A DNA stretch of 64,000 nucleotides from Sialis fuliginosa. Its lineage: Eukaryota > Arthropoda > Insecta > Megaloptera > Sialidae. The stretch is from the NCBI GenBank assembly GCA_961205875.1, contig OY540810.1:28520001-28584000 (forward strand), read 5' to 3'. A model generated the notes under the pieces. That model was not told the DNA's origin and did not search any database. It saw nothing but the letters and a program-made list of their open reading frames with translations. Shown piece by piece: positions 6,801 through 64,000 of this stretch; position 1 is the first letter of the stretch; each line of letters begins with the position of its first letter. A program made the position numbers and the translations under genes.

Positions 6801-7303
6801 GTCCAACACGTTTGATTATCCATTAGGTTTTCGAATCAGGTTCCCGGACCATACAAAGGTGTAAATTTATACATTGTTTTTGCGAATTATTATATAATAT
6901 TTATAATAATATTTTATCGTATTAGATTTTTATTTATTAATAAATTATAAATTACTGTTTATTTGCATTTATAAAATTGTGTTAAAAAAAGTTATATTTC
7001 AATATATTTTTGAATTTAGACATTTAATTGTTTTTTTGGTGTCGCCATTATTCATCCCGGATAAAATACTGATACATTGTCCATTATGTCCGATCCTCTA
7101 GCTCCAATAATAATAAAAGAGAGTGATAGTAATAGCTAATTTTCCTTTGGAAATAAATAAAACTGTACTTACGTGTGCGGAGATAATAGCAAAAGCATGT
7201 TAAGTTCGCCTTTGAGTTCCGCGATTAATTTTTTAACCGGACAGTTAAACCGATGCATTACGCCCGCGTTCATATCGTACGTACGGTTTCAAACCGAACT
7301 ATA

Positions 7304-8188
7304 CAGGATGGGGCATTTAAAGTGTTACAGTTGATTATCTCAGAACCATCGCATATTTGAAAAAAATATTTCAATCAAAAAATGTTTGGTTGTAAGGGGG
7401 TAATCGAATAGTAATATTTATTTGCTATTTTTACGTGGCCTTCAAGGATATTTGAAGATCAATATCATTTTTTTAAATAGGAACCTATAGTTTTTATTTG
7501 GTAATCTTATTTTACGTGAAAAAATACGAATCTTTCATTGAAAACTTTTTTTTGAACAACCCAAGCTTTCCAAGGTATTTAACAAAATAATTCGAGATTT
7601 TGAATTTTCAAGAATTTTTTACTCAGAAACCATAAACTTTAGAAAAAAAGTACAAAATACAAAAAATGTTTATTTTGGTCTAATGAAACTTGGAGAATTA
7701 TTCTAGATTTTTTTTAACATTTCGTACTTTTTTTTGTTGCTAAAATAAAATAAATAGAAAAAGTTTTTAAAAGTTTTAAAATTTTTTTAAATAATTCTCC
7801 ACGCTTTATTAGACCAAAATAAATATTTTGTGTATCCTGTATTTTTTTTCTAAAGTTTGTGGTTTCTGAGTAAGAAATTCTTGAAAATTCAAAATCTCGA
7901 ATTATTTTGTTAGATAACTTGGAAAGCTTGGGTTGTTCAAAAAAAAGTTTTCAATGAAAGATTCGTATTTTTTCACGTAAAATAAGATTACCAAATAAAA
8001 ACTATAGGTTCCTATTTAAAAAAATGATATTGACCTTCAAATATCCTTGAAGGCCACTTTAAAATAGCAAATAAATATTACTATTCGATTACCCCCTTAC
8101 AGCCAAACATTTTTTGGTTGAAACTTTTTTTTTCAAATATGCGATGGTTCTGAGATAATCAATTGAACACTTTAAATGCCCCATCCTG
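7304..8188. mobile_element. Long-armed foldback element, family FB-1, copy 1
   Basis: This 885-bp element is flanked by TA and ends in CAGGATGGGGCATTTAAAGT and its complement. Nearly the whole length is one inverted repeat: the left arm (GATTATCTCAGAACCATCGC ...) is mirrored on the right, with a short centre near 7740. A shorter copy lies at 29385-29871. It has no coding capacity and would form a hairpin of about 400 bp if transcribed. Confidence 0.8.
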
Positions 8189-9181
8189 TATGTGTAAGAT
8201 GTGCCATATGTTTCGATTTTCGACCCATAGGTACCCTAATCCGGTAACAGTGCTAGTGTCAGGGAATACAATAACCAAACATGTAGGGCCACCCTAAAAT
8301 ACAATGAAATAGGCTTTTTTAAATTACTTTTTATTGATTATTATGAATAATCAAATCTTATAATATTTTCTTCTTAAAAATATACTTTAATTGGCCTCGA
8401 AGCTCCCGTACAGTGAACTATGACGTAACTATAAATGTAAGGCTTATATTTTATGATTAGCCCTCTAGAATATGTAAATATAAATTAAGTTTAAAAAATC
8501 ATTATATGTACTTACTTTTTTAGCATTCCCATTACAAAACTCACCTTTTGTTTCTCTTGTTCTGTAAAATTAATAATTTGACTATAAAATATTGGAAATC
8601 ACACAATCATTTCATAATTTTTTAATAAAAAATTCTCTAGTCCGGTCCATATTTATTAATGAAACACAAATATATTTTCTCATGTATTTTTACGCAATGT
8701 AATAAATCGGATTATATCACAGTATCAATGTTTTTATAATTATCATAAATTATTATTAAAATAAATGATCTATTATAATATTATATCAAAACATATACTT
8801 TATTTCATTATACCTACATATTTTTTTACGTATAGATAGTAATTCATATATAATTACATCTTACTTAAATGAAACTTAATAATATCTATAAACACCGTTC
8901 AAGAACTGTAAAGTATAATTAATACATAAAAAAAAAATATAATATATATAATAATTACATAACATTCAATCCAAGCTACCGCGGCGATTTCAATAATGAG
9001 GGCGATGGTTGTCCACTGCAATGTACGACGAAACGTTGGTCGATAAAACGACCAAATCCAACAATTTCCATGTTAATATTATTATATTTATTTATTTATA
9101 ATTGAGATAAAAAATAAATAAAATATCGCATTGATATTTTTTTTTAATAATAATATCAATTAATCTTTATAGTTAGAGAAA

Positions 9182-13967: not shown

Positions 13968-16900
13968 TTAACGAACTCTCAATTTAAGACCAACCCAACA
14001 TCCATCTTTTGCCTGAGTTCTGAAGGTATCAGCTGCTAGAAGCATCGGTATAGGAGTCTTTGAGGTAGTGACAATATCAAAATTGGCCATGATATAAAAT
14101 AGAAATACTTTTATCTCCATAAGAGCAAATCGAGAACCTAAAAAAGAGCTTGTTAAAAACTGTATTAACATGATATTAACATTATTTAGATTATTTCTTG
14201 ATTTCTTAAACAAATGCATATCAAAATTAAATAAAATATAACTATAGTCTGTTTCGTTTAAGATTGCAGCAGTAGCTAACATAGGAAGCATAATACGCGC
14301 TTCTGATTGGGTAAAAATTCAGGCAAATTCACAATAACAAAATTTGCACTGACGCAATAAAATGCAATTAAATTCAAAATGTCAGATTAGTCCTTAGACA
14401 AGGAAAAAAAGGACAAATAACACATTACCTATAGCGTTGTTATCATATCCGTCCACGAGTCATTGGCGCATCATTTAGATTTTAAAATAAATATCAATTG
14501 TTTTGAATTATAAAGTTAATAAATGTTTTATATTGTCTTTAAAAGTATTTCAGTGATAATTTGTTAATTGCATATTATAAATTTGCAACTAACGCCTCTG
14601 GGATAATACGCATTTAAATGACATGTGACATTTTAGAAAAGATGGCCGCCGTAAAATTTTGGTAACAGTTTCACTAGCATTAGTTGTTATGTAGGTATCC
14701 ATAGTCTTTCCTAATCTAAGGATTAGTCATTCTAAAAATGTGTATTACCTATATTATCGACATTAGGATATTAGAAAACTAATATTCATAATACAAAGAT
14801 GAGTTTTATTTCATAAAAATTTCATTAAAAGTTTTCATATGCATATTAAAATATTATTAATATTATTTTATGGGCTAGCCTAGTACGAGAATAGTGCCTG
14901 TGTGAATCGTATCATCTAATCCCCGTCCACCATTGCAATCTTAAATGAAACAGACTATTGGCCGTATTCATAGTTCCTCCTTGAGGAATAAGGATCCCTT
15001 GACAACCAAGGCTTCCTTATCTCAAGGTAGGTCGCTAGCTTCCTTGAGGCTCCCTCAAGTCATAGATAAAATACAATTTAACCGTAACGCTGACGACACG
15101 TACATAAACATAACCTATAAATGTAGTTGCACATTTCAATCTATAGTTTTGTGCTGTCATCAGCCTTTCAGACAACATGAATAAATATAAAAAATAAGAT
15201 AATGAACAACGAATTTAAAAAAACACTTTATTTATAAAATAAACATTATTAATAACATAAAAATAATATATAATAAGATTTCCTTGTTTTGTCTTCTACG
15301 TTTATTATGCAAAATTTGTTGATAACAGTCAAATTATCTGTTACAACCACTCTTTATAGCATTAATTTGCTCGTAATTTTCTTATAACAGCTCCATACAT
15401 TAGTTGTAACGAGGAAGGGCATTTTTAATGATTTTGACACTTAACTTTAACACACGGGAGCAGGTTCCGAAACTGTAAATTTCTTGAGCAGTTAATTTCC
15501 TACAACTCTTCATTAGTTAAGGGTTCGCCATTTAATTTTAACAAAGTATGAATATCAACAACACCTTTGATGCCTTCGGAAATGGCTATAAACTAATTTC
15601 TTCGGTGGTATTTTGAATATTATGTTCATAATTGATGTAATCTTCAACAATTTATCTGAAACTTTTTCTGAACACCCTTCATACATAAAATTTTACCATT
15701 TTGCATTCAAAATAAATGAACAGTTTTTCTTCATTTTTACTGAATTAGTTAATAATAATAATTTAAAAAGTCTAATGACAGAACAAAAATAACCAACAAA
15801 ACACATAAATACAACTAATTTTCCGTGTGAAATTAGTTGCACGCACTATAAAACGGCGCTACCATTAGTAGGTCACTAAAAATTCCTAGAATATTCGTTC
15901 CTCGATGAAGGAAGCCTTGAGATTTGACTATCAAACAAGGGAGCCTTGGATATCTGAGGAAGCCTTGATCAAGGCTTCCTTATACCTTGAGATAAGGAAC
16001 GTTTATGAATACGGCCATATAATATAGAATATAAATCTTACTTTATGCAAAATTAATCACGATTAGTTAATTATTTGTTTTAAAACCATTATTACCGTCA
16101 TTTCTAAAAAAAACAATCACAGTTATATGTTAACATATTTATAAGGTAAAATATAATCAGATTAAGTTTAGAATTAACATTAATCATGGTTTGAAAACAA
16201 CTGATTAACTAATCGTGGTTAATATTGCTTTATGCAATCCAAGGAGGATGTTTACTTTCAGTTTCATGTAAATAAAAAAATATAAAAAAATAGAACATAA
16301 TAGGTATATACTAATATCACATTGAAACAAATGATAATACATATATGTATATACTTATGGTTTACTTTTAAAACAAGCAATATCAAGAACTTCTTACCAA
16401 TACATCCTCTAGGACCAATTCCAAACGTCATGAACGTTCCATGGTTAATATTATGTTTATTTTCATCACTGAATCTTTCTGGGTCGAATTGATCAGGATT
16501 GGGATAGTATTTAGGATCTCTGTGTATAGCAAAAACAGGGAAGTTAACAGTGACTCCTTTATCTAACTGTAAAACTCCATCTTCTGTTTTAATTTTGTAC
16601 GGGGTTGTACACAATCTATCTAGTACTGAAACGCTTGGCCATATTCGTAATGTTTCTAAAATAATTAATTACGTTTAAGTTGTATGTATGTACATTTTTA
16701 TTTGTCAACTAGCTGATATTCCCCAGCGTTGTACGGATGGATATCGGAATGTCACCTAAGTTGTTGTTTAAGCCTAACGTTTTTCTTTACTTACTTCCAC
16801 CTGGACGTCGTGTCTATTATCAATGAATAATACTTGAACTTCGTCGGTGAGAGCCAATACGAAATTGGCAAATTAGAGGTCTCCAATGTTATAAATAAAA

Positions 16901-21570: not shown

Positions 21571-21776
21571 GGGTCGATCCAAACTATCGTGCCAATCCCG
21601 GTCCGGTCTCGCTCCAATCAAAATACAAATAAACAATAAACAATGAAAGCATCCACACTATAGGTATCGTGCCGGTCTCGCTCTAGTCACACTTCAATAG
21701 AGTATTTACTATAGGTATTGAATATTTGACTGGAGCGACACTGGACCGGGACCGGCACAATAGTATGGATCGGCCC
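21571..21776. mobile_element. Harbinger-like MITE, family GGGTCGATCC, copy 1
   Basis: The ends GGGTCGATCCAAACTATCGT and GATAGTTTGGATCGACCC-like sequence on the right form an imperfect inverted repeat. The flanks are TTA and CTA. The interior is rich in CCGGTCTCG words. Same family as 58878-59263. Confidence 0.65.
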
Positions 21777-21918
21777 CTAGTAAGTAAAATCAATGTTACA
21801 AATAATTTGCTTTATGTTGAAATATGTATAAGTACGAAATATTAAAAATTAGACTACCCCATTATGCCAGTTATATATTTTTTCTCATGTATTTTTAAAT
21901 AACCTAAAAGGTAATTAA

Positions 21919-22905
21919 CCTTTTCGCTCCGGGACTGGTCCTTATATGGACCAACAAGAAAAGCGAACGTAATAGATGTTTATAAGGTCAATTTAATGCA
22001 CTAAATTTAGGAAAAACATTGATAAAATCCTGGTTACATCTTTGACCTTCAAAATTAACTTTGAAGGTCAAACAATGAAAATGCGTATTTGCGCTTGAAA
22101 ATTGGTATACCTACGTTTTATGAGTCGCTGAATACGATAAAATTAGTAAAAAATTCTAGTGACTTCTTTGACCCTGAACTTTGAAGGTCAAAGTAAGAAA
22201 GGGCGTATTTGCGCTAAAAAACTTGAAAATTGGTGTATCTAGATTTTATTTATCATAGTAAACGTCCACGTCGTTGATTCTGGGTAACGCTAAGAGCGAA
22301 AGCCTTTTGTAGAATTATAAAATTCCAAGGTGCCTGGAGCTAGTGAAGGAACTTACATGCACTTTCACTCACTGAGGGACTGTGAAGTCCCATTGGGCGT
22401 TCAATCCGAGGGTAGAACTTAGAACTTCTGCACTACGAACTGTCTAGAATGCCTTCTTACCAACAGAAATACTGTGAAGTGCCACTTTTGAAGCGCTAAT
22501 ACCCAATTTCATGTTTTGACCTTCAAAGTTCAAGGTCAAAGAGATAACTAGAACTTTTTTTACTATTTTTATCGTATTTAGCTGTTCATAAAACATAGGT
22601 ATATCAATTTTCAAGCTCAAATACGCATTTTCATTATTTGACCTTCAAAGTTCAAGGTCAAATATGAAACTGACATTTTTTTCACTATTTTTATTGTAAT
22701 CAGCACATCAAAAAACATTGAAAAGCGCTCTTGAACCTTCACTTATAATTTTTTACATTAGCCTTAACTTTCTCTCCGGGAGTGGTCCATATATGGACCA
22801 GCACTCCGAGTGGTGACTTGTCATAAGAAGTTCATTCATTTAAGTCATGAAATTCAGCTAAAATGCGAGGTCAATTTTAAAGGAAAAATCCCCGGCGCGA
22901 AAAGG
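21919..22905. mobile_element. piggyBac-like foldback element (987 bp)
   Basis: The ends are CCTTTTCGC and GCGAAAAGG, directly flanked by TTAA on both sides (21915-21918, 22906-22909), as expected for piggyBac insertions. Inner arms pair CTCCGGGACTGGTCC with a matching copy near 22778. The interior repeats AAGGTCAAA words, including two exact TCAAGGTCA sites at 22530 and 22652. I see no transposase coding. Confidence 0.75.
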
Positions 22906-23465
22906 TTAATAAGATATCACAATGCATTGTTTTTTATGGTTGTCTTTTAAATAAATAATTTCTTATCATATTAAAATATGTACTTTATTTTATAATACAT
23001 AGATAAATGTATGCTTATAATTATTTATAAGTACAAAACACATAAAGATAAAATTACACGTATTTGTATAGTTTATAATCAAATTATTTTATCGATATTC
23101 CCCAAAGTTTCATAATAATTACACAATGATTAGTATTTTATCATTAAATGATTTTTCTTGTGTACGTTATTTTTAATTAATATGTATATTTGGAATACTT
23201 CAACTCCATACTTCTAAAAATATTACTTCGATCTCTGTATTTATTTTATTTAATAAAATAAACACTCGTTCTGATAATAATATAATAGCTAAAATATAAC
23301 CAAATATACATAGGTACCTACAATTGTTTTTCTATTTTTCTCAGATTAATTAAATACTTTTTGTTTTCTGAAACATATTTCAGTAACCAGGTATGAAAAT
23401 TAGGAAAACGATAAAAATGTCAAAAGATTTTTTTTTAAATGTCTATATTATTATTATAGATAATT

Positions 23466-28724: not shown

Positions 28725-31700
28725 TTATTCCACAATTTTTCTTGGCTTTAAACCAATCCAAAATCCATTCTTTGCAGTTATTTTAAATACATGCTTTAGA
28801 ATTTCCAATTTGGTATCAGTTTTTTCTGTCACAATGAAGTCAAATTTGCTCAGTAAATAAAATAAAATTATTTTTATTTCCATTAATGCAAATCGGTTTC
28901 CTAAAATATATTAAAAATTATTTAATAATAGAGCATTTAAATAAAACAAAGAGGGGAAGGTATGTAAAAAATTTTAAATTGATTAAAACACAAACAATAC
29001 GTTTCAATCTTAAGATCAACAACGATCTGCAAAGATCTACAACGATCTATAAAGATCACGATCTGCAAAGATCTGCAACGATTTACAAAGATCTACAACG
29101 ATCTACAAAGATCTGCAACGACCTACAACTATCTGCAAAGATCTACAACGATCTACAAAGATTTACAGCTATCTGCAAAGACCTACAACGATCTACAACG
29201 ATCTGCAAAGATCACGATCTACAAAGATCTACAGCTATCTGCAAAGACCTACAACGATCTACAACGATCTGCAAAGATCACGATCTACAAAGATCTGATT
29301 TGTTCCAAAATGAAGATCAACCGAGACCTGATTTGATCACTACAGATCTGAAATTTTTTCCCGGGGTACTATAAAATAGATATACAGGAAGGGTATTTAA
29401 AGTGTTACAGTTGATTATCTCAGAACCATCGCATATTTGAAAAAAATGTTTCAACCAAAAAATATTTGGTTGTAAGGGGGTAATCGAATAGTAATATTTA
29501 TTTGCTATTTTAACATAGCCTTCAAGGATATTTGAAGGTCAACATCATTTTTTTAAATAGGAACCTATTTTTATTAAATCTCGAATTATTTTGTTAGATA
29601 CCTTGGAAACCTTGGGTTGTTCAAAAAAAAGTTTTCAATGAAAGATTCGTGTTTTTTCACGTAGAATAAGATTACTAAATAAAAACTATAGGTTCCTATT
29701 TAAAAAAAAAATGTTGACCTTCAAATATCCTTGAAGCCACGTTAAAATACCAAATAAATATTACTATTCGATTACCCCCTTACAACCAAACATTTTTTGG
29801 CTGAAATATTTTTTTCAAATATGCGATGGTTCTGAGATAATCAACTGTAACACTTTAAATGCCCCACCCTGTATATGTACATACTCATGGCAGAAGTTTT
29901 TATTTATGCTATTCCCCACCAGCCCCCACCCAAGAGCAAGTTTTAGTTTTATTTTATGATTAATGTAATGATTGGGGAGGTTGGGGGGCTAGGGCAATGG
30001 CATGGATAAAAACTTCTGCCATGGATAAATATCTATTTTATAATCTATAACAAAGGTATACACCGTGCGGCAGAATTTTTCATTCGGTATTTTAGATTTT
30101 ACAACATTTTCAAGATTCGGATACAATTTTGGCCATTTGTAGGCATTTAAGCACCGAAGTCCTTACATAAAAAATTCTGTCATTATTTATTTTTAATGTA
30201 AGTGTAAGTCAAAAAAAACATTTGGCACCTGGTCTGGTCCGGTTGTTCTCTGGAATTTTCTGGTCGAAATTTTGAGGTGCCCCCTTAATTAAGCATCTAA
30301 GAAAAAATTTCTGCCATATATCCAAAACATCTTTAATTTGGGTCTACTTTAAGTAACCCTCATTTCCAAGCGATTGTAATGCGAAAAATGTGTTCGTATT
30401 TTTCGGGGTACTTATTAGTGGATACTTTCAAAGTAACCACATAATTTTGTAAAACCTACACAGATGATATAGCTGGCTCCCCTACTAAATAACTCGAGAT
30501 ACTAAAATGACTTGCTTATCTCAAATCTAATAAGTACTAACCAATACAAGCTCTGGGACCAAGACCAAATGGAAAATATGTGAAAGGTTGTATCTTGTGT
30601 TTGTTTTCAGAATTGAATCTTTCGGGGTCGAATTTCTCGGGGTTTTGATAATACTTTGCATCATTGTGAATGTTATATAATGGTAACAAAATTGTTACTC
30701 CTGCTTCAATTACTACACTTCTCTTTTCAGTGATCAGTTCAAAATCCTTTCGACAAATTCTGTCTATAAAAGTGAAAGGAGGCCATTTTCGTAAACATTC
30801 TGAAAAAAAATTTATAGTATATAATTAAAGAAAGAAACTAAAAATTACAAGTCACATAATATGAATCTTCCAGCAGTAGAAACAAACAAAAGTCCACAAA
30901 TAAATAATATTTTCTTCTTTAACTCATTTTACCTGAAACTACCATGTCCATATATTCCATTTTAAATAAACTCTCGTAAGTAACTCTTTCTTCGTGTCTT
31001 ATTAACACGTCATCTATTTCTTGTTGAAGCTTTTTCTGAATATCTAGATTCATAGCTAACTCATGTGCGGTAAAAGACATTATCATAGAAGATGTTTCAA
31101 AACCGCCGATGAAAAATACCAACGCTTGACCGACAATGTCATCATCAGTTAAAACTGAAACAAATTGTATGAAAAATATGAATATCCATCAAGGACCAAC
31201 ATAAAAATATCGTACCTAAATCTGTTTTCTTTTCCAAATCAATTTCAGATTCTTGAACCGTAGCAAACCCTGTTTCGTGATCTTCTTTCTCATGCTTCAA
31301 GTTTCCTTTCTTAGCTTCCATAAGAAGGTGAATCATGTCAGGTCTTATTATCCCTTCTTTCTCTCTATAAGCAACTGTTTCCACAATTAAGTTCCGGAAA
31401 AACATCACCACTTTACCACTTAAGAAACCTTCTCCTAAAAGCTGAAGTTGAATTTTATTTTTTATTTATTATTTGGCCAACACACGACTTTCTGTATATG
31501 TATATAGGAAAAATGAAACAAAATTACATGAATTATGTCTGTTTTAAAAAAATAAAAATTTCTTCGAAAAACTCAATTTTCAACTTTTTCATTTATACTA
31601 TAACAACTACGTATATAAGAAAGTACAAAATAGATAAATAATAACCTTCATAAGTTTTGGTAATAAAGCAACCAAAAGCATCCTAACGTTATTTATTTCA

Positions 31701-36428: not shown

Positions 36429-39400
36429 TTATTCCATAAGTTTTCTTGGCTTCAGACCTATCCAGAATCCATTCTTTGCAGTTATTTTAGATACATGCTT
36501 TAAAAGTTCCAACTTGGTATCAGTTTTTTTTGTCACAATGAAATCAAATTTTCTCAGTAGATAAAATAAAATTATTTTAATTTCCATTAGTGCAAATCGA
36601 TTTCCTAAAATTTATAAAAAATACTTTACATGTAGATCATTTAAAGGGGAGAAAGTATTAGTTGGATAGCCTATGATAATAATTTTTAAATGATCGGGAA
36701 AAGTTATCGTTATTGATAAATCTTATTGTAAGAAACAATAATAACAACTTCTGTCAGTACATCGTCATCGCAGCGTTGTCAATTGACAACACTTTAAACT
36801 TGTTAAAAAAATGTATATTATGTGTGCATATTTGCCTTTTGATTCAACGTGTTTATCTAATCATATAATCCATATAAACACTCGAAACAAAGGTGCCAAG
36901 TACTGTATTAAACAATGATTTAATTTCTTAAATTTTTGGGTTTTTTTCCAGACATGCTAACAACCTCTCTCATAGATAATGCACAGCTATAGATGTCTGC
37001 TTTGAATTATTTTGTCATATATGCAATTATGTAAACGCGATAAATCAAAAAGCAGAGATAATGATATCATAATAATATGTTGTATTTTCTTAACAAATTT
37101 GAACCACTGTCATTCGAAAACGCAACAACAAGCCAATGTTTGTTTATTATTTGATTCATATAATCCTAAACTACAGTACCTATTGTTATCAAAGATGAAC
37201 AAATAATTTACCAAAAATATATAATAACAATTAGATATTAGATTAGACATATTACATATGTGATTCGCGAATAATGTCTGGCATTATAAAGGAGCTAGCA
37301 AAATTTGCTAACTAGCAAGCATTTCCAAATGAGGTTTTAAACCAATCTGAAAGTACTATTGTTGAAGTATCATTGCTCTAATCCATAGATACTATCACAG
37401 AATTAATACCCCATTTTAAAGTGCTTGCTAGCTAGCAAATTTTCTAGCTCCTTTATAATACCGGACATAAGTTGATCTTTTTGAACGAATTGACTCAAGT
37501 CAGTATCTTGAAAAATACCCGTTCTGTTGTTTACTATATTCAATATGAATGCTGTTTATTTTTTCACCAGATAATTTGTAAACAAATATATGCAGTAAAT
37601 TCATAATAATATATTAATAAATTATTCCCCGGTATTATAAAAAAATTGTTCGAGTGCGAAAACTAATTCGCTTGTACATAATACTATCTGCTAGGCATTG
37701 AATATAAATGACACACTCACAGTTGAAGCTAATTAAATCGTATATATGACTACCTTGACGCATGTGCGTTAATTAGAAATCAGCGACTTAAAAAAGCGCT
37801 GCCAAGTTAGAACTAACTTACTAAACTGATTCAAATAACTCGAGTTACCCGAGTTTTTTTAATCAGCCAAATAGTTACAAACCTATACAGGCTCTGGGAC
37901 CAAGACCAAATGGAAAATATGTGAAAGGTTGTATCTTGTGTTTGTTTTCAGAATTGAATCTTTCGGGATCGAATTTCTCGGGGTCTTGATAATACTTTGG
38001 ATCATTGTGAATGTTATATAAAGGAAGCATCGTTGTTACTCCTGCTTCAATTACTACACTTCTCTTTTCAGTGATCAATTCAAAATCTTTTCGACATATT
38101 CGTTCAATGGCAATCAAAGGAGGCCATTTTCTTAAGCATTCTGAAAATTAAACCAGTGATTATTTTTTTGTAATTAAATACAGAAACGAAAAATAGTTAA
38201 TGGCATATGAGACATCCAGCAGTAGAAACAAAAAATAGTCCACAACTAAATTGGAGATACTAATTATTTTATCTTTTCTTCTTTAACTCATTTTACCTGA
38301 AACTACCATGTCCATATATTCCATTTTAAACAAACTCTCGTAAGTAACTTTTCCTTCGTTTGTTATTAACACGTCATCTATTTCTTGTTGAAGCTTTTTC
38401 TGAATATCAAGATTCATTGCCAACTCATGTGCGGCAAATGACATTATCATAGAAGATGTATCAAAGCCGGCGATGAAAAATATCAACGCTTGCCCGACAA
38501 TGTCATCGTCAGTTAAAACTGAAACAAAATTACATAAACAATATGAAAGGTGGAACTTAAAAAAATAAAGTACCTAAATCTGTTTTCTTTTCCAAATCAA
38601 TTTCAGATTCTTGAACCGTAGCAAACCCTGTTTCGTGATCTTCTTTCTCATGCTTCAAGTTTCCTTTCTTAGCTTCCATAAGAAGGTGAATCATGTCAGG
38701 TCTTATTATCCCTTCTTTCTCTCTATAAGCAATTGTTTCCACAATTAAGTTCCGGAAAAACTTCACTACTTTATCACTTAAGAAACCTTCCCCTAAAATC
38801 TAAAGTTGCGTTTTATTTTTAATATACCTACATATATATATTTTATGACCACCACACGACTTTCATTAAAAATAGATAAATAATAACCTTCATAAGTTTT
38901 GGTAATAAAGCAATCAAAAGCATCCTGACGTTATTTATTTCAGTAATTTTTTTACCCATTTTGAAAAATTCGTTGTCTTTATCTTTTAATGATTCACATT
39001 TAAGACCAAAGGCGCAAGTAGCAATAACATCATTAGTAAACCTAGAACACAAGTCTTTCATTTCGTAATCTAATGTTGCTGGACCTTTAGAGGATGTATT
39101 TTCTTTCGATAGTCTCAATAACTCATCAACTGTCTGTTCTCCACATTTAGATACAAGATGAAACATCATTTTCATTTTACTACTTGTGAATGCTGGACTT
39201 AAAATTGATCTCAAACTCTTCCACTTTTTTCCTACATTACAGAATATTTGTTTAAAAAATATGTGTTTATGCACATTTACTTACATTTTATACATTTACT
39301 TACCATTTGAAGAAAATAAATTTTTGCTCAATATAGGATCAGTATCTTCAGTAATAAATAAGGGTGTGTGGTCAATAAAATGGTCAAAATGTTTAACAGT

Positions 39401-39729: not shown

Positions 39730-40289
39730 TTTTGTTATTCGTATTTGTAATACATAAACAATATCTACTATACTTTTATAACTTTTAAAATTCTAAATAT
39801 TTACTTATTTTTAACAAGCTACTTTTTTATATACCAAAAAAAAACTTAATTAACTCATTTACTCTATTATTTATTTTTAAGTAATTATTATTATATGTGT
39901 GTAATATTTTTGCAAGTTATTCAAATACTATACCCGTTAATTTAAGTTTAGTGCAATGGCATTGAAACCTATTTATAAATATTCTGGTGTACAGCATGCA
40001 TAGATTATTTTCCAGTAGAGGGACAAATATAATGTAATCAATAAATATGAACAGGGCTGAGTAAAAACTGTTATACAAAAAATCATCAATGTTATTTTTC
40101 TATTAATTTGATAGAATCTATTAAATTTTTTTTACACATAATAAGGTTCACTTCCAATAAATACGTGGCTGTTCGAGTTAATCCTTAAAGTCAAGAAACT
40201 AACAATGAAAGGTTCATTCTTCTTTCATGATAACACATTGAGTAGGGGGCGAATCACCTATTATATGATTTTACACTGATTTGTTTTTT

Positions 40290-41395
40290 TCTTGGTTTAA
40301 AACCAACCTAAAATAAATTTTTAAAGGACGACCTAAACGAATGATTAGCAAGTATTTATTTTATATTGTTTTTTTGTAACTACAAAATCGAATTTTTATA
40401 ATAAATGAAAATAAAGAATTTTTGCCTCTGCCTAGTAAACATTATTTTTTTAAATCTATTTAAAAGCCCAATAACTATTAGGCTTACCAATACAGCCACG
40501 AGGTCACTAACCAAAAGATAATTTTTTTTTATTTATTTGACATCTACATATGTCGGCTGAGTCTTCTCCTCTTCCGACAGCTCTTCGTATGTTGTACTGT
40601 GTATTTGTGTGTGTGTTGTTTTGTTTTGTTTTTTGAGGGGAATTCACGGGGACACAAGATGGATATAGGATGTTGCTGACGGACCGGTCATCGCAGGATA
40701 AGACGCACAGGATGGCCATATTGACATGCAGGATTAGGGTGTTTGGTTGACTATGGAAGGGGATGACATATATTTGATTTATCTTCTTTTTTTTTGTTAT
40801 TGTTGTTATATTGTTAGTTAAGTTTTGTTGATAAATTCGAATAGTTTGTTATAATATTTTGTAATTTGTAGTACTTCTGTGATAGAGTCTGGAACTTCCC
40901 TGAGGATTGCTTCTCTTTCACTTTTCCAGATGGGACATTTTAAAATTAGGTGTTCAGCATTAGCTATGGTTGTATTGTCGCATCTGTATGTGTAATAAAT
41001 AAGTTACCGTTGATTTATATATTTTATTTATGTTTATTTTCATGGCTAAAACACTCCGGATCAATTTTCTCTGGATTTGGGTAATATTTAAGGTCGTGAT
41101 AAATAACATAAACTGGCAATACTAGACTGGTTCCTTTCTCAATTAATATTTTCCTATTATCAGTCCCTAGCATATAATTCTTCGTACAAATTCTAACATT
41201 TTTAACTACATGAGACAATTTTCTAAAGCATTCCAAAATTTTAAAATTAATTCACATGAATCTTTTTTATATAAAATTAAACTACCCAGAGATAACCATA
41301 TCTAAGTATTTTTTTTGAAACAGAACATCATAAAATATTTTTCTTAAATTCTCTTTAAAGATTCGTCAATTTTTTCATGTAGTAAATGCAATTTT
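40290..41395 (-). pseudogene. Cytochrome P450 CYP9-like pseudogene I (decayed copy of G)
   Basis: Only relics of exons 5, 6 and 7 remain. The exon 5 remnant (about 41285-41395) is truncated and out of frame. Exon 6 (about 41236-40483) is cut by a LINE insertion. Its coding part reads like G (NRKILIEKGTSLVLPVY), but PERF has become PECF and the Trp-Pro-Pro after ExxR is lost. The heme loop ends in a changed reading (CCACGAGGTCACTAA). Exon 7 (about 40440-40290) lacks the SRFALME start and carries stops and frameshifts. Exons 1-4 are absent. It sits just upstream of H, as G sits upstream of F. Confidence 0.85.
40521..40994 (-). mobile_element. 3' end of a non-LTR retrotransposon (LINE) inserted in pseudogene I
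   Basis: On the minus strand 40985-40818 encodes a protein tail with a CDN...AEHLILKCPIW arrangement (Cys-His-Cys), ending in LFEFINKT and TAA. It is followed by about 300 bp of 3' UTR and an A-rich end (AAATAAATAAAAAAAAA) near 40521. Such a zinc-knuckle-like tail after the reverse transcriptase is typical of R1/I/Jockey-type LINEs. The 5' part is missing, as in usual truncated insertions. It interrupts exon 6 of the P450 relic. Confidence 0.75.
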
Positions 41396-41817: not shown

Positions 41818-44800
41818 TCACGTAACATGAATTTTTCTTGGTCTAAGTCCAACCCAAAATCCGTTTTTAAGAGACAATTTAAACGGATGATTAGCAACTG
41901 TTGATTTTACATCAGTTTTTTCTGTAACTACGATATCGAATTTTGATAGTAAGTAGAAATAAAGAAGTTTTGCTTCCATTATCGCAAATCTCGATCCTGG
42001 AAAATAACAAAAATAAAAGTTAAATAATCCATTCTTATGGTTGTTTAATAACACAGGTTTACAAAAATAAAAAAGTTTATGAATATTTGACGAGACCATT
42101 GTATCCTTATGTATTTTGACGTCCTGAATCCGAATCTGAGGTCCGTCGACCTTGGTTAGCTCAGTTTCAAGGTCATTTTAAGGTCAAATTTTTAAAAATC
42201 GCTAAATGATTCTGGTAAAAGGTGATATATAAGTCTTTCTGATCGCTGATTCTGAATTTAATATCCGTTGACCTCTACGAGGTCAGGTTCAAGGTCATTT
42301 CAGGGTCAAAGCAGGAAAAACCGCTCGAAAATTCTGACAAAACAGTACATATAGATTTTTGTGGTTGCTGAATTAAAATTTAAGGTCCGTAGACTCTTAC
42401 AATCTCAGTTTCAAGGTTATTTCAAGGACAAATTTTTATTTTTACAAATCGCTAAATGATTCAGGTAAATTGTGTATATAGGTTTCTCTGGTCGCTGATT
42501 CTGAATTTAACGTCCATTGACCTCTATGAGGTCAGGTTCAAGGTCATTTGAAGGTCAAAAGGGGAAATATCACTCGAAAATTCTGATAAAACAGTACATA
42601 TAAGTTTTTGGGGTCGCTGTATTAAAATTTGAAGTCCGTAGACCCCTTCAATGTCAGCTTCAAGGTTATTTCAAGGTCAAATTTTTAAAAATTGCTAAAT
42701 GAATCTGGTAAAAGGTTATATATAGGTTTCTCAGGTCGCTGATTCTGAATTTGACGACCGTTGACCTCTACAAGGTCAGGTTCAAACCTATATGTACTGT
42801 TTCGAGCAAGTTTTCCCACTTTTTCTTGAAATGACCTTGAACCTGACGTCTTAGAGGTCAACACACATCAAATTCAGAATCAGCGACCCGAGAAACCTAT
42901 ATATCACCTTTTACCAGATTCATTTAGCGATTTAAAAAAATTAAATTTTGATCTTAAAATGACCTTGAAAATGACATTGTAGGGGTCTACGGATTTCAAA
43001 TTTTAATTAAGCGACCCCAAAAACCTATATGTACTGTTTTGTCAGAATTTTCGAGCGATTTTTCCAACTTTGACCCTGAAATGACCTTGAACCTGACCTC
43101 ATAGAGATCAACGGATATTAAATTCAGAATCAGTGACCAGAAAGACCTATATATCACCTTTTATCAGAATCATTTAGCGATTTTTAAAAATTTGACCTTA
43201 AAATGACCTTGAAACTGAGCTAACCAAGGTCAACGGACCTCAGATTCGGATTCAGGACGTCAAAATACATAAGAATACAATGGTCTCGTCAAATATTCAT
43301 AAACTTTTGTTTTTTTGTAAACCTGTGTAATCAAAGAAATTATCACCAATTTTTAATTTCGATTTTATAATAAATTATAATATGTGAAGTACTTTTCAAA
43401 CAAAAAAAAGCAAAGTACTCGATATTGCATTTATTTATCAAGCAATTGAAAATCATATTTTCCAATTTTTATAAACGGTTTTTTTGTGGTTTTATGTTTT
43501 GTAGAATGTATTGTTTTGACTTAATGTTGATATGTAAATTAATCACACTTACCAATACAACCACGAGGTCCCAAACCAAAAGGAAAATAAGTAGATTGTT
43601 GTATTTTGTGTTTATTATCAATATTAAAGCGTTCAGGGTCAAATTTCTCAGGATCTGGGTAATATTTAGGATCATGGTGAATAGCATAAACTGGGAATCC
43701 TATACTGATTCCTCTTTCTATTAATATTTTCCTTTTCTTAGTCTCTAATACATAGTTCTTCGTGCACACTCTGTCAGTTAATACAACCGGAGGCCATTTT
43801 CTAAGAGTTTCTGAAATATTTAAACATCGATTTAATTATGTAATAGATTAAAAAAATTAAAATTTACCCGAAATAATCATATCTAAGTATTCCATTTTGA
43901 ACAAAGCATCGTAAGTTAATTTTCCTAAATTATTGTTTAAATTGACATCAATTTCTTCTTGTAGTTTCGTTTGGATATCTTCGTTAATCGCTAGTTCATG
44001 ACCCATGAATGCAAGCAGGTTTGAAGATGTTTCAAAACCAGCAAGAAAGAATACAAAAGCTTGTGCTACGATGTCTTCATCAGTCAGGACTAAGGAATAT
44101 TAAGAAATATTAATTTAAAAAACTTTATTCCTTCTAAAAATAATCTGATTAACCAAAATTATTACATAAGAATTTGTACCAAGTTTGTTAGTTTTTTCCA
44201 AATCAATTTCGGTTTCTTTGAAAGCAGCAAATCCTGATTCATTTGTTATATTAGATTCATCCTCGTGTGTCAATGTGCCCTTTTGAGCTTCTATTAATAA
44301 ATTAATGACATCTGGTCTTACAAATGAATTATTTTTACGAATATCTAGAGTTTCCATAATGATATTAGTAAAATAATTTAGAACGGCATTCTCAACAACA
44401 CCTTTTTTTAAAATCTAAAAGAAAATTTTAACAAAATATTTTTTGTAAAAAGGATATAAACAATTAAGATATATCAATAACTGCCTAAGACATAACATAC
44501 GCTTTGAAATTCTTCAGACACTTATCGAGATAGGACACAATAATAATTTTGCCAGGTGTAAAATTAACTCTAGATACGAAAACAAATATGTAATTTACCA
44601 TCAGTATCTTTGGAATGAAATTAATCAACGTTACTCTAAGCAAAGTAAAATCAGTAAACCGTTTTGCCATTTCAAAAAACTCGTTATATTTGTATTTCAG
44701 CGAATCACACTTTATTCCAAATGCACAAGTCGCGATCACATCGTTAGTGAATCTTGTTGATAGATCCTTTAACTCCACGTCCATTGTTGCGGGTTCACCC

Positions 44801-58468: not shown

Positions 58469-59514
58469 GGTCAGGCCGTAATCTTCCTCGCGAAACTAAT
58501 TTAAGCGGAGACGGATTTTTTATTTAATAGATAAACGAAAGTGTATTAGGGTTACGTTACATGAACAAATTTGTTTTTGCGTGTTTTTAGATTAATATTT
58601 ATCTTTTATTGGAGTCAACTTTTTTCGTAGTATTTGTACTTTTCAAAATAACCGAGGTTCTATGTGTCGAAAATAGGTCATCAAAACGTGTTCCCTTATC
58701 GGAACTATTATTTTTTCTCAATGTGCGATTTAGTGATTTGAAAAAAAGCGAAGATGTCGTAGATTGTTTATATGTCAATAAAATTCAATTCCTTATATTA
58801 GTAATGTTAACTTTCAAAAAATCTCAATTAACTCGAAAAAAATAGAAGTTAACTGGACCTTTTTTGAAACATATTAAGGGTCGATCCAGACTATCGAGCT
58901 GGTCTCGGTACGGTGTCGGTCCAATCAAATCTTATAATATTTACATTAACGAGCCAGTCACGGGCCGGTCTCGGTCTGGTCTCGATCCGGTCTCGCTCCA
59001 ATCAAATCTGATGATATTCACATTAACAAGCCGGTCTCGGTCCGGTCTCAGTCCAATCAAATCTTATAGTATTCGAAGACGAACTGGTGCCAGATTCGAT
59101 CAGGCTCCAGTAAAATATTCTTCGATACTATACTGTATCAGAGCGTGATTGGATCGAGATCTGACCGATACCTATAGTGTGAATGATTTCATTGTTTATT
59201 GTGTATTTATATTTGATTGAAACGAAACCGGACCGAGACCGGCTCGATAGTCTGGATCGACCCTAAAAATTCGGTCGGTCTAATACACCCTGTAATCGTG
59301 AACACGCACCTAATTTAAAAAGTAAAACTTATATATTCCTTTGATAACATCTTCAAGATTCCATGCCTTAATAGGTACCTAACCGTAGCGATAATTAACC
59401 GATAGAATTATGAAACAAAACTACATTGAATACAAAGATAAAGATTTATTATTATTTATGTTACGTTTACACAATTTTATCAATATTGATTATGAATTAA
59501 GTAAGTATGTATAT
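58469..59514. other. Intergenic region between genes L and M
   Basis: Contains the GGGTCGATCC MITE (58878-59263). The first 300 bp upstream of gene L resemble the DNA upstream of K (ATAGGTCATCAAAACGTGTTC at about 58673 and again near 52439), so the promoter regions of K and L are related. No further gene seen. Confidence 0.55.
58878..59263. mobile_element. Harbinger-like MITE, family GGGTCGATCC, copy 2
   Basis: The ends GGGTCGATCCAGACTATCGA and the complementary TCGATAGTCTGGATCGACCC are a near-perfect pair flanked by TAA on both sides. The interior repeats GGTCTCGGTCCGGTCTCG words in tandem; the shorter copy is at 21571. Confidence 0.8.
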
Positions 59515-62617: not shown

Positions 62618-63446
62618 GGTTACACCGTGATATTTCTCACGAAACTAAATTAAGCTGAGCGAGATATATTATTTATTAGATAAACAAAAGTACGTTAAGG
62701 GTTATACCACATGATCAAACCTGTGTACAAAATATGCATTTTCAAATAAATACGTATAATGGTGTATATATACGCATTTATTGGAAAAATATGTGCGGTT
62801 CTGTGGTTAAGATATTTCATTGGAACAGCTTATGTTATGTTTCATTTTATTTGTATGTGATGAACGGTGAATTTAGAATAGTAAATTAATTATTTAATCA
62901 ATCAAACTGCACTGTACTTAAAAATATTAATGCATAAAAATATATATAAAATATTAGTATATAATGTATTTGTTGTACATATTTTAAAATAAACTATATA
63001 AATATTTCTTATTTTTAACGAAATGTCGAAGCGAAATTTTAATTCGACTTTTAACCTGAACCAGGGCTCTTCTAAAAACACTTTTAGAAGAGCTTAACCA
63101 TATTGACGTGGCTTGCACCCAGAAGCCAAGATCCATATCAAAATCACAGCGGAAGTCTCAAAAACTTTTTTTATTTTATCATATTATGTAGGAGTCTATT
63201 TTCAAAAGATCTCTTGTTCATAAATATTCAAATCTGAGTTATTGATTCTATCATTTTCAGAATTCAATTAACTATCTAAAAATACATATAAAAATATTGT
63301 GTTTACCAAAAATTTAATATACATTTTAAACATTTTTCTTGATTTACCGAAAACTTCTTTGGAAGGAGACCTTTTGAAAATAATCTCCACATATTTATGA
63401 AATAACAATAAATGTATTAATGTTTCTTTATTTATATTTTTATTAG
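62618..63446. other. Spacer between gene M and the transporter exons
   Basis: No exon seen. A perfect 12-bp stem with a 4-nt loop (GCTCTTCTAAAA, ACAC, TTTTAGAAGAGC) lies at 63066-63093. Part of this stretch must be the upstream intron of the plus-strand transporter gene. Confidence 0.5.
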
Positions 63447-64000
63447 GTTGGGTTGGTTTACCATGGATCTTCGCCGTCATAGCGATGCAGATCTACACAG
63501 CCCACCTCCTGGGTCGGTGTTGGACCTGGGCAGAGACCAAAGACCCGACCGGGACCTCCTCCAGAGAACGATATCCTTACGCAGCCCTCGCCAGAGCCAC
63601 TCTGGGCCCTACGTTCGCCAAATTTGTCGCTGTGCTTGTAGACATAACTGTATTTGTTGCTGGTGTACCAAATATTATAGTTGGTGAGTGGAAAAATATA
63701 TGTAGCTTTTATTCAGGACCGAATTTAAAATGTGGTAACTAAAAATTTTATTTTAATTTATTTTTCATAAATTATATAAATTGAAAACATATTATATTTG
63801 TTAGTCGTGGAACTAACAGTTATTATTTTTTCAGCTTCTCAAAATCTACAGATATTTGGTCTCAAAATAACGCACTACGAGTTTAACTTTCCATTCTGTT
63901 ACTGGATGTTGATTCTTGGAGCAATACTGTGTCCTTTAATGTGGTTAGGTAGTCCAAAAGACATGAAGTAAGAAAATATTATACATATATATATTTATCG
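63447..64000 (+). CDS. Amino acid transporter, AAAP type (AVT/VGAT-like), two internal exons
   Basis: Two exons are visible: 63447-63683 and 63835-63967. The first follows a TTTTTATTAG acceptor and encodes GWVGLPWIFAVIAMQIY, then LLGRCWTWAE, a polar segment with RERYPYAALARATLG, and a hydrophobic helix FVAVLVDITVFVAGVPNIIV. It ends at GTGAGT in phase 1. The second (after TTTTTTCAG) encodes ASQNLQIFG, then a hydrophobic stretch around YWMLILGAILCPLMWLG. The pattern of a Pro-containing helix and an RYPYA.LA.A.LGP loop fits the amino acid/auxin permease superfamily (SLC32/36/38 relatives), membrane proteins moving amino acids. Both ends of the gene are missing, so the subfamily is uncertain. Opposite strand to the P450 array. 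Confidence 0.8.

Follow-up and report, generated by a model that had tools for sequence, protein, structure and literature searches.

Transposons are frequently credited with dispersing ready-made binding sites for regulators of their hosts. In Sialis fuliginosa (Megaloptera), an intron of a cytochrome P450 gene holds eight exact copies of a word of nuclear-receptor type, TCAAGGTCA, raising the question of whether these words serve the host gene or the mobile element in which they lie. The locus was analyzed within a window of 64,000 nucleotides (contig OY540810.1, positions 28,520,001 to 28,584,000; coordinates below are those of the window) and compared with the 392 Mb genome.

The host gene and its intron

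The element, here called E1, lies in a cytochrome P450 gene (PF00067) of the minus strand and makes up most of its last intron. We take this gene to belong to the CYP9 family; its exons were found open by eye from the ORF list. This intron (41997..43552, minus strand) is 1556 nt long with GT..AG borders, and 280 nt of it, including both TAA copies, lie outside E1. At the same intron position only about 166 nt are present in the closest paralogue of the window (81% over the heme exon), which therefore carries no such element.

In four of the 12 P450 copies of the window (near 14138-16399, 28901-30543, 36605-37884 and 41997-43554), more than 1 kb separates the heme exon from the last exon, compared with about 80-600 nt in the rest; insertions seem to collect in P450 last introns. 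Another P450 gene has, in its last intron (28901-30543), the element E3b described below together with about 30 tandem copies of the 10-bp unit AAGATCTACA (29012-29296). Between two fuller genes, 40287-41194 shows partial P450 matches, with a heme exon match over 56 aa and a last exon made of two overlapping weak P450 matches, and looks like a decayed P450 copy. An amino acid transporter exon (PF01490, E 2e-6) on the plus strand at 63401-63742 adjoins the P450 cluster.

Structure of E1 and its receptor-like words

E1 (42052..43327) is a full-length copy of a non-autonomous, non-coding palindromic DNA transposon family, family A, with the terminal inverted repeat CACAGGTTTAC, TWA target-site duplications and a filling of tandem modules of about 122 bp, which typically contain two TCAAGGTCA-like words at a distance of 11 bp. 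Its own duplication is TAA, at 42049..42051 on the left and 43328..43330 on the right, both read on the plus strand. The sequence-only reading had described a mirror-image element at 42051-43328, and this was borne out: the inverted ends ACACAGGTTTAC are perfect over 12 bp, and the arms are 91% complementary over 434 nt. The mobile part is slightly shorter, 42052-43327. No listed ORF of at least 80 aa lies wholly within 42051-43328. Ahead of the first word stands a 115-bp left lead (42051..42165, plus strand), which was used as a genome query and whose inner part already resembles a module end; the right lead (43214..43328, minus strand) is its inverted copy, 96.5% identical. Between the leads, the left-arm array (42166..42781, plus strand) consists of five units of about 122 bp in two alternating types, forming a 249-bp dimer, and the right-arm array (42786..43213, minus strand) of three units and one truncated unit.

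The whole window contains ten exact copies of the word TCAAGGTCA; 100 shuffles of it average 0.29 copies and never exceed 2. As had been reported, eight of these copies lie within 42051-43328, four in each orientation, and two more, at 22530 and 22652, fall in a second element at 21919-22905. Words 1 to 4 of E1 are on the plus strand (42167..42175, 42289..42297, 42538..42546 and 42671..42679) and words 5 to 8 on the minus strand (42832..42840, 42960..42968, 43082..43090 and 43204..43212). Two decayed words, both TCAAGGTTA, were found on the plus strand at 42411..42419 and 42660..42668; the latter is the first word of the unit at 42660, whose exact word, word 4 at 42671, is the second half-site of that unit. 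An even spacing of about 122 bp had also been claimed. The units do have this length; the steps between exact words are non-uniform: in the left arm they measure 122, 249 and 133, in the right arm 128, 122 and 122. A step of 249 arises because one unit is skipped, its first word having decayed to TCAAGGTTA (42411).

In E1 every unit of about 122 bp contains two half-sites separated by 11 bp, and for this reason the word with one free base, TNAAGGTCA, is found 11 times in its 1.28 kb. The 21 occurrences of TNAAGGTCA in the window are those 11, seven in the second element (E2) and three in the two copies of a third (E3), which have one and two. The remaining 60,346 bases have none against 2.0 expected, a zero also reached by 12.5% of shuffles and obtained with E3 boundaries set after the words had already been seen. 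Within E1 the words begin about 116 bp from the ends and then run through the whole element, beyond its subterminal part. The eight exact words do not represent eight independent events; their source is tandem amplification of one unit combined with inverted duplication.

The word had been presented as a known half-site of FTZ-F1- and ERR-type receptors. The ERR motif is likewise a TCAAGGTCA-type word. The FTZ-F1 part of the statement agrees with the literature, as the excerpt available of a study of Drosophila follicle cells gives TCAAGGTCA as the Ftz-f1 motif (PMC7239656). Given this motif match, a receptor may bind the E1 words.

Family A across the genome

The proposal that a mobile element multiplies FTZ-F1/ERR-type words was upheld genome-wide, where TTCAAGGTCA occurs 4556 times compared with 488 for the reversed control, some of these occurrences being outside family A. 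The word pair with at most 3 mismatches was found 3779 times in the 392 Mb genome against 19 for its reversed control, and the family A ends TWACACAGGTTTACAA 251 times exactly against 2. Copies of family A are present at well above 100 genomic sites.

Altogether 74 loci were used: three of the eight loci of the first word-pair set (four overlaps and L011, which is of another kind, having been dropped), 40 further loci, 30 from the left-lead query and the window copy. One lead per orientation was present in 64 of the 74, which entered the flank test; the ten without a single plus and a single minus lead (L016, L018, L020, L022, L023, L025, L032, L034, L051 and L065) were set aside. Identical 3-bp flanks, each TAA or TTA (TWA), were observed in 59 of the 64 rows, corresponding to 45 of the 49 distinct copies. 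At L064 a family A copy lies inside an E3 element with the TAA doubled, the empty site being given by four intact E3 ends in the window.

A genome search for further copies had been recommended, and copies lacking the words had been named as evidence against the reading. The search gave the 49 distinct family A copies, each with 4-11 exact words, and the 27 distinct full copies found via their ends, 14 of them by ends only, carry 4-10 exact words each. Pairing of the 100 ends listed of 251 joined 76 into 38 pairs and left 24 unpaired; 37 of these pairs are 690-1282 bp long and one is 2525 bp. The fetched part of the 2525-bp pair, which excludes the left ~720 bp, has no listed ORF longer than 72 aa.

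The transposase domain DDE_Tnp_4 (PF13359) has 146 matches in the genome. When 33 of the 38 matches on C1-C4 were compared with the 100 listed ends, the nearest was 15.4 kb away, four of the 33 lying beyond the end of the list at C4:33.6 Mb. No autonomous or transposase partner of family A was found among the 100 ends listed of 251. Of six patterns searched in viral contigs one matched; its five loci, in four different sequence contexts, appear to be chance matches. Two places in other genome contigs, in loci of 56-57% G+C with little module match beyond the pattern, were also taken as chance.

Fate of the words after insertion

The sequence-only reading had suggested that the element could act as a portable enhancer, for which retention of the words by selection after insertion would be expected. 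Divergence was determined in an alignment of the 31 family A copies that reach 1200 bp, without the 18 shorter ones; the consensus of the 31 contains 11 exact words. At TNAAGGTCA sites, 167 of 3809 letters were off consensus (4.38%), compared with 1565 of 35289 elsewhere (4.43%; 4.24% without CpG), and at exact-word sites alone 123 of 2995 (4.11%). A value as low or lower came from 626 of the 1277 circular shifts of the word pattern.

The 19 copies found by the lead kept 141 of 202 exact words, compared with 134.1 expected from each copy's own divergence. Among the 12 copies located through the word pair, a route that favors kept words, 97 of 129 were retained against 87.6 expected. The window copy E1 kept 8 of 11 consensus words, where neutral decay predicts 7.6, with divergence of 3.0% at word sites and 4.0% in the rest, a single copy having little power. 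Once inserted, family A words decay about like neutral sequence, with room left for a small excess of kept words in both the lead-found and the word-pair-found sets. Since the rate of divergence is about equal at word sites and in the rest, there is no sign of the host keeping the words as enhancers, and the suggested enhancer function is unsupported.

A module shared with a second transposon group

The same module was found in a second transposon group, group B, whose ends are unlike those of family A. Modules were read at five group B loci (L022, L107, L108, L128 and L129). At L022 the module without the words gave E 4e-8, and 0 of 1000 shuffles reached its score against E1; a model that was built from the units of E1 and L022 and that retained the words gave E 1e-18 at L107 and 9e-23 at L108. 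When the module was searched for by its non-word core, L106, L107 and L108 came up, with L022 as the fourth place. The L106 module (E 7e-9) has zero AAGGTCA. At L106:1349-1596 this module is accompanied by a single end resembling that of family A (ACACAGGCACACGA, with a TWA flank), which makes the locus a natural wordless contrast.

With the L107 lead as query, 40 places of 89 candidates were scored, at 95-100%. L107 and nine further copies (10/10 of subgroup B2) have AAA followed directly by GGACCCCGCAC at one end and GTGCGGGGTCC followed directly by TTT at the other, with no identical 3-bp flanks. L108, ending with GGACCCCTCAC, agrees with this pattern of GG..CC between AAA and TTT, also with no identical 3-bp flanks. 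L128 (1266 bp) and L129 (1395 bp) are full palindromes filled with modules, with nine and eight exact words, respectively. A hAT origin of group B was considered for a hint of an 8-bp duplication with one mismatch at L107 and was rejected, nine more copies having no duplication. The leads of A and B have nothing in common beyond 11 bp. The module in A is nevertheless the module in B, despite unrelated ends and the lack of a target duplication in B.

Conservation within the module was compared among units and between groups. Among the eight E1 units, the top five of 120 nine-column windows by conservation cover TTCAAGGTYATTT, and the second half-site alone ranks 30 of 120. In the consensuses of A, B1 and B2, 19 of 20 word-pair columns are identical, compared with 45 of the 101 others (Fisher 1.5e-5, with columns taken as independent, L022 having been found by words and the L107 and L108 modules cut with a word-containing model). 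Across groups A and B, no other block of the module is as well conserved as the word pair.

Other elements carrying the words

E2 (21919..22905) has inverted ends and TTAA flanks (21915-21918 and 22906-22909), and its two exact words are 122 bp apart. E3a (7301..8191), a palindromic element that is TA-flanked by eye, has one TNAAGGTCA, and E3b (29381..29872), a shorter copy of the same family, has two; the boundaries of both are approximate. In the masked window the best match of the E1 unit model was E2 (E 0.0057 with the words, 0.22 without). Per 1000 of each, the E1-E2 scores were reached by 2 shuffles and 3 genomic stretches for E2p_a, by 12 and 19 for E2p_b and by 120 and 72 for E2m_a; the L022-E2 scores were reached by 18, 529 and 355 of 1000. 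A weak homology of E1 and E2 outside the words is possible. Homology of E1 and E3 outside the words is unsupported, 424 of 1000 reaching the score (55 of 1000 for L022-E3). Beyond E1, TNAAGGTCA is present in elements of the types E2, E3 and F12, with modules that show no clear match to that of E1.

Another palindromic family was seen at L086-L089 (the L086 copy measuring ~531 bp). Its TTCAAGGTCA words are paired in inverted order at a distance of 12 bp, and its body has no clear match to the E1 module beyond the words. Five loci, L011, L023, L025, L032 and L051, carry an exact word pair outside families A and B, and at least some of them are E3-like. The GGTCTCG-rich repeats at 21603-21762 and 58899-59053 look like another repeat family; a 77-bp unit occurs twice at 58899, and similar words are found near 21603-21697.

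Whom do the words serve?

In this genome sites matching a receptor motif occur far above chance, yet they decay copy by copy without a sign of host retention. The word pair is the best conserved across groups, and yet it drifts about neutrally after landing. Inserted copies drift while the lineages that go on propagating agree, which suggests that the constraint is on the element side. The explanation that we favor, with slightly better than even confidence, is that A and B are module-filled transposons whose word pairs serve the transposon, likely as sites for a mobilising protein, and that the P450 copy is likely a passenger. Word pairs would be retained only in lineages that are still jumping, presumably for their service to the transposon. 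Given the conservation of the pair across groups, the words probably act in mobilisation, and by analogy with the subterminal repeats of Spm/En they would most likely be repeated binding sites for the mobilising protein. Several observations fit this poorly: no family A transposase was found among the ends listed, the words fill the element from about 116 bp inward instead of being just subterminal, the second half-site alone has no special conservation among E1 units, one module within unrelated ends is odd for a transposase-specific site, and L106 carries the module with no AAGGTCA.

A rival account that we regard as doubtful is inert amplification, in which the words have no function and whatever the ancestral unit contained was spread by tandem duplication, unit-to-unit gene conversion and palindrome copying. 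The tandem and inverted structure, the near-neutral drift after insertion and the wordless module of L106 are all consistent with it. It does not account for a word pair that surpasses the rest of the module across groups, as the first half-site does across units, nor for TNAAGGTCA in E2, E3 and F12 elements without a clear module match. A hormone-responsive enhancer, with FTZ-F1/ERR-type receptors binding the array and driving the P450 gene while the host keeps the array, is improbable. The exact match to the Ftz-f1 motif and the density of TNAAGGTCA in E1 argue for it, as do an excerpt reporting enrichment of transposons at xenobiotic P450 genes (PMC1852546) and the precedent of Alu elements, which, according to an excerpt, spread consensus DR2 receptor sites in primates (PMC1785376). 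Against this, neither family A nor E1 shows a clear excess of word retention, E1 sits in the last intron, and the words are a family-wide property. Because they belong to a transposon throughout the genome, the P450 setting is not special to them, and E1 is most likely a passenger in the intron. Least probable, indeed very unlikely, is that intron transcription yields a dsRNA of about 500 bp that Dicer-2 processes to siRNAs against family A. The P450 gene is on the appropriate (minus) strand, and the RNA of the E1 intron from this strand folds into one long hairpin of -824.8 kcal/mol (a value with no shuffle control above 1000 bases). Arm differences in the transcript comprise 12 G-U compared with 9 A-C, with no clear G-U preference and no strand-bias signal, and a hairpin function would leave the conservation of the words unexplained.

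Under the favored reading, service of the word pairs to the transposon, resemblance to a receptor half-site may be a coincidence or may reflect a captured host receptor, and a host factor as user of the pairs is compatible with the data. One extension, which we consider rather unlikely, is that the FTZ-F1/ERR-type module of about 122 bp moves between TWA-duplicating and duplication-free groups, possibly including the TTAA-flanked E2, and that a gonad-active host orphan receptor aids access or mobilisation. If the host receptor were the common user, the module would be a shared molecular passport among parasites. The main interest of the locus is the module common to two transposon groups: with different ends on the two, a trade of cis-acting cassettes becomes testable, as does the use of the shared module by a host receptor.

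Comparison with known systems

With terminal inverted repeats, no coding capacity and 251 exact ends, the family of E1 has the properties of a MITE. The TWA target duplication is a mark of PIF/Harbinger, which would be the superfamily of family A. Family A resembles PIF/Harbinger-type MITEs in its 3-bp TWA duplication (45/49), terminal inverted repeats, non-coding body and many dispersed copies, and differs from them in ends that start with CACAGG and in the long palindrome of tandem modules of about 122 bp.

Group B, placed between AAA and TTT without duplication, is presumably Spy-like; Spy transposases are distant kin of PIF/Harbinger. Spy transposons are said (Han et al. 2014) to insert between AAA and TTT with no target duplication. 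Group B, and not E1, shares with Spy the GGACCCCGCAC inverted repeats between AAA and TTT and the absence of a target duplication, whereas only non-coding copies of group B were seen.

A CACTA assignment of E1 was dropped, as its termini are CACAG, not CACTA, and its duplications follow the TWA pattern. CACTA elements (En/Spm) share with E1 the 3-bp duplications and repeated motifs near the ends; in Spm/En these subterminal repeats are bound by the element-encoded TNPA, according to the excerpt available (PMC2613891). Unlike them, E1 has a TWA duplication and modules of about 122 bp that fill the whole element. SmTRC1, of an animal CACTA group, is described in an excerpt as having 2-bp repeats, perhaps with a CCC core (PMC1636069), and subterminal repeats also matter for the hAT-derived Kat1, as far as the excerpt of that report goes (PMC4763223). 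Among the papers listed by literature searches that paired receptor with transposon terms, none dealt with such words in transposons of insects, which falls short of proof that none has been published. Like the Alu DR2 elements, as excerpted (PMC1785376), family A is a repeat family that disperses nuclear-receptor half-sites; unlike Alu, the carriers here are DNA transposons with extended monomer half-sites in inverted arrays, and their use by a receptor is only putative.
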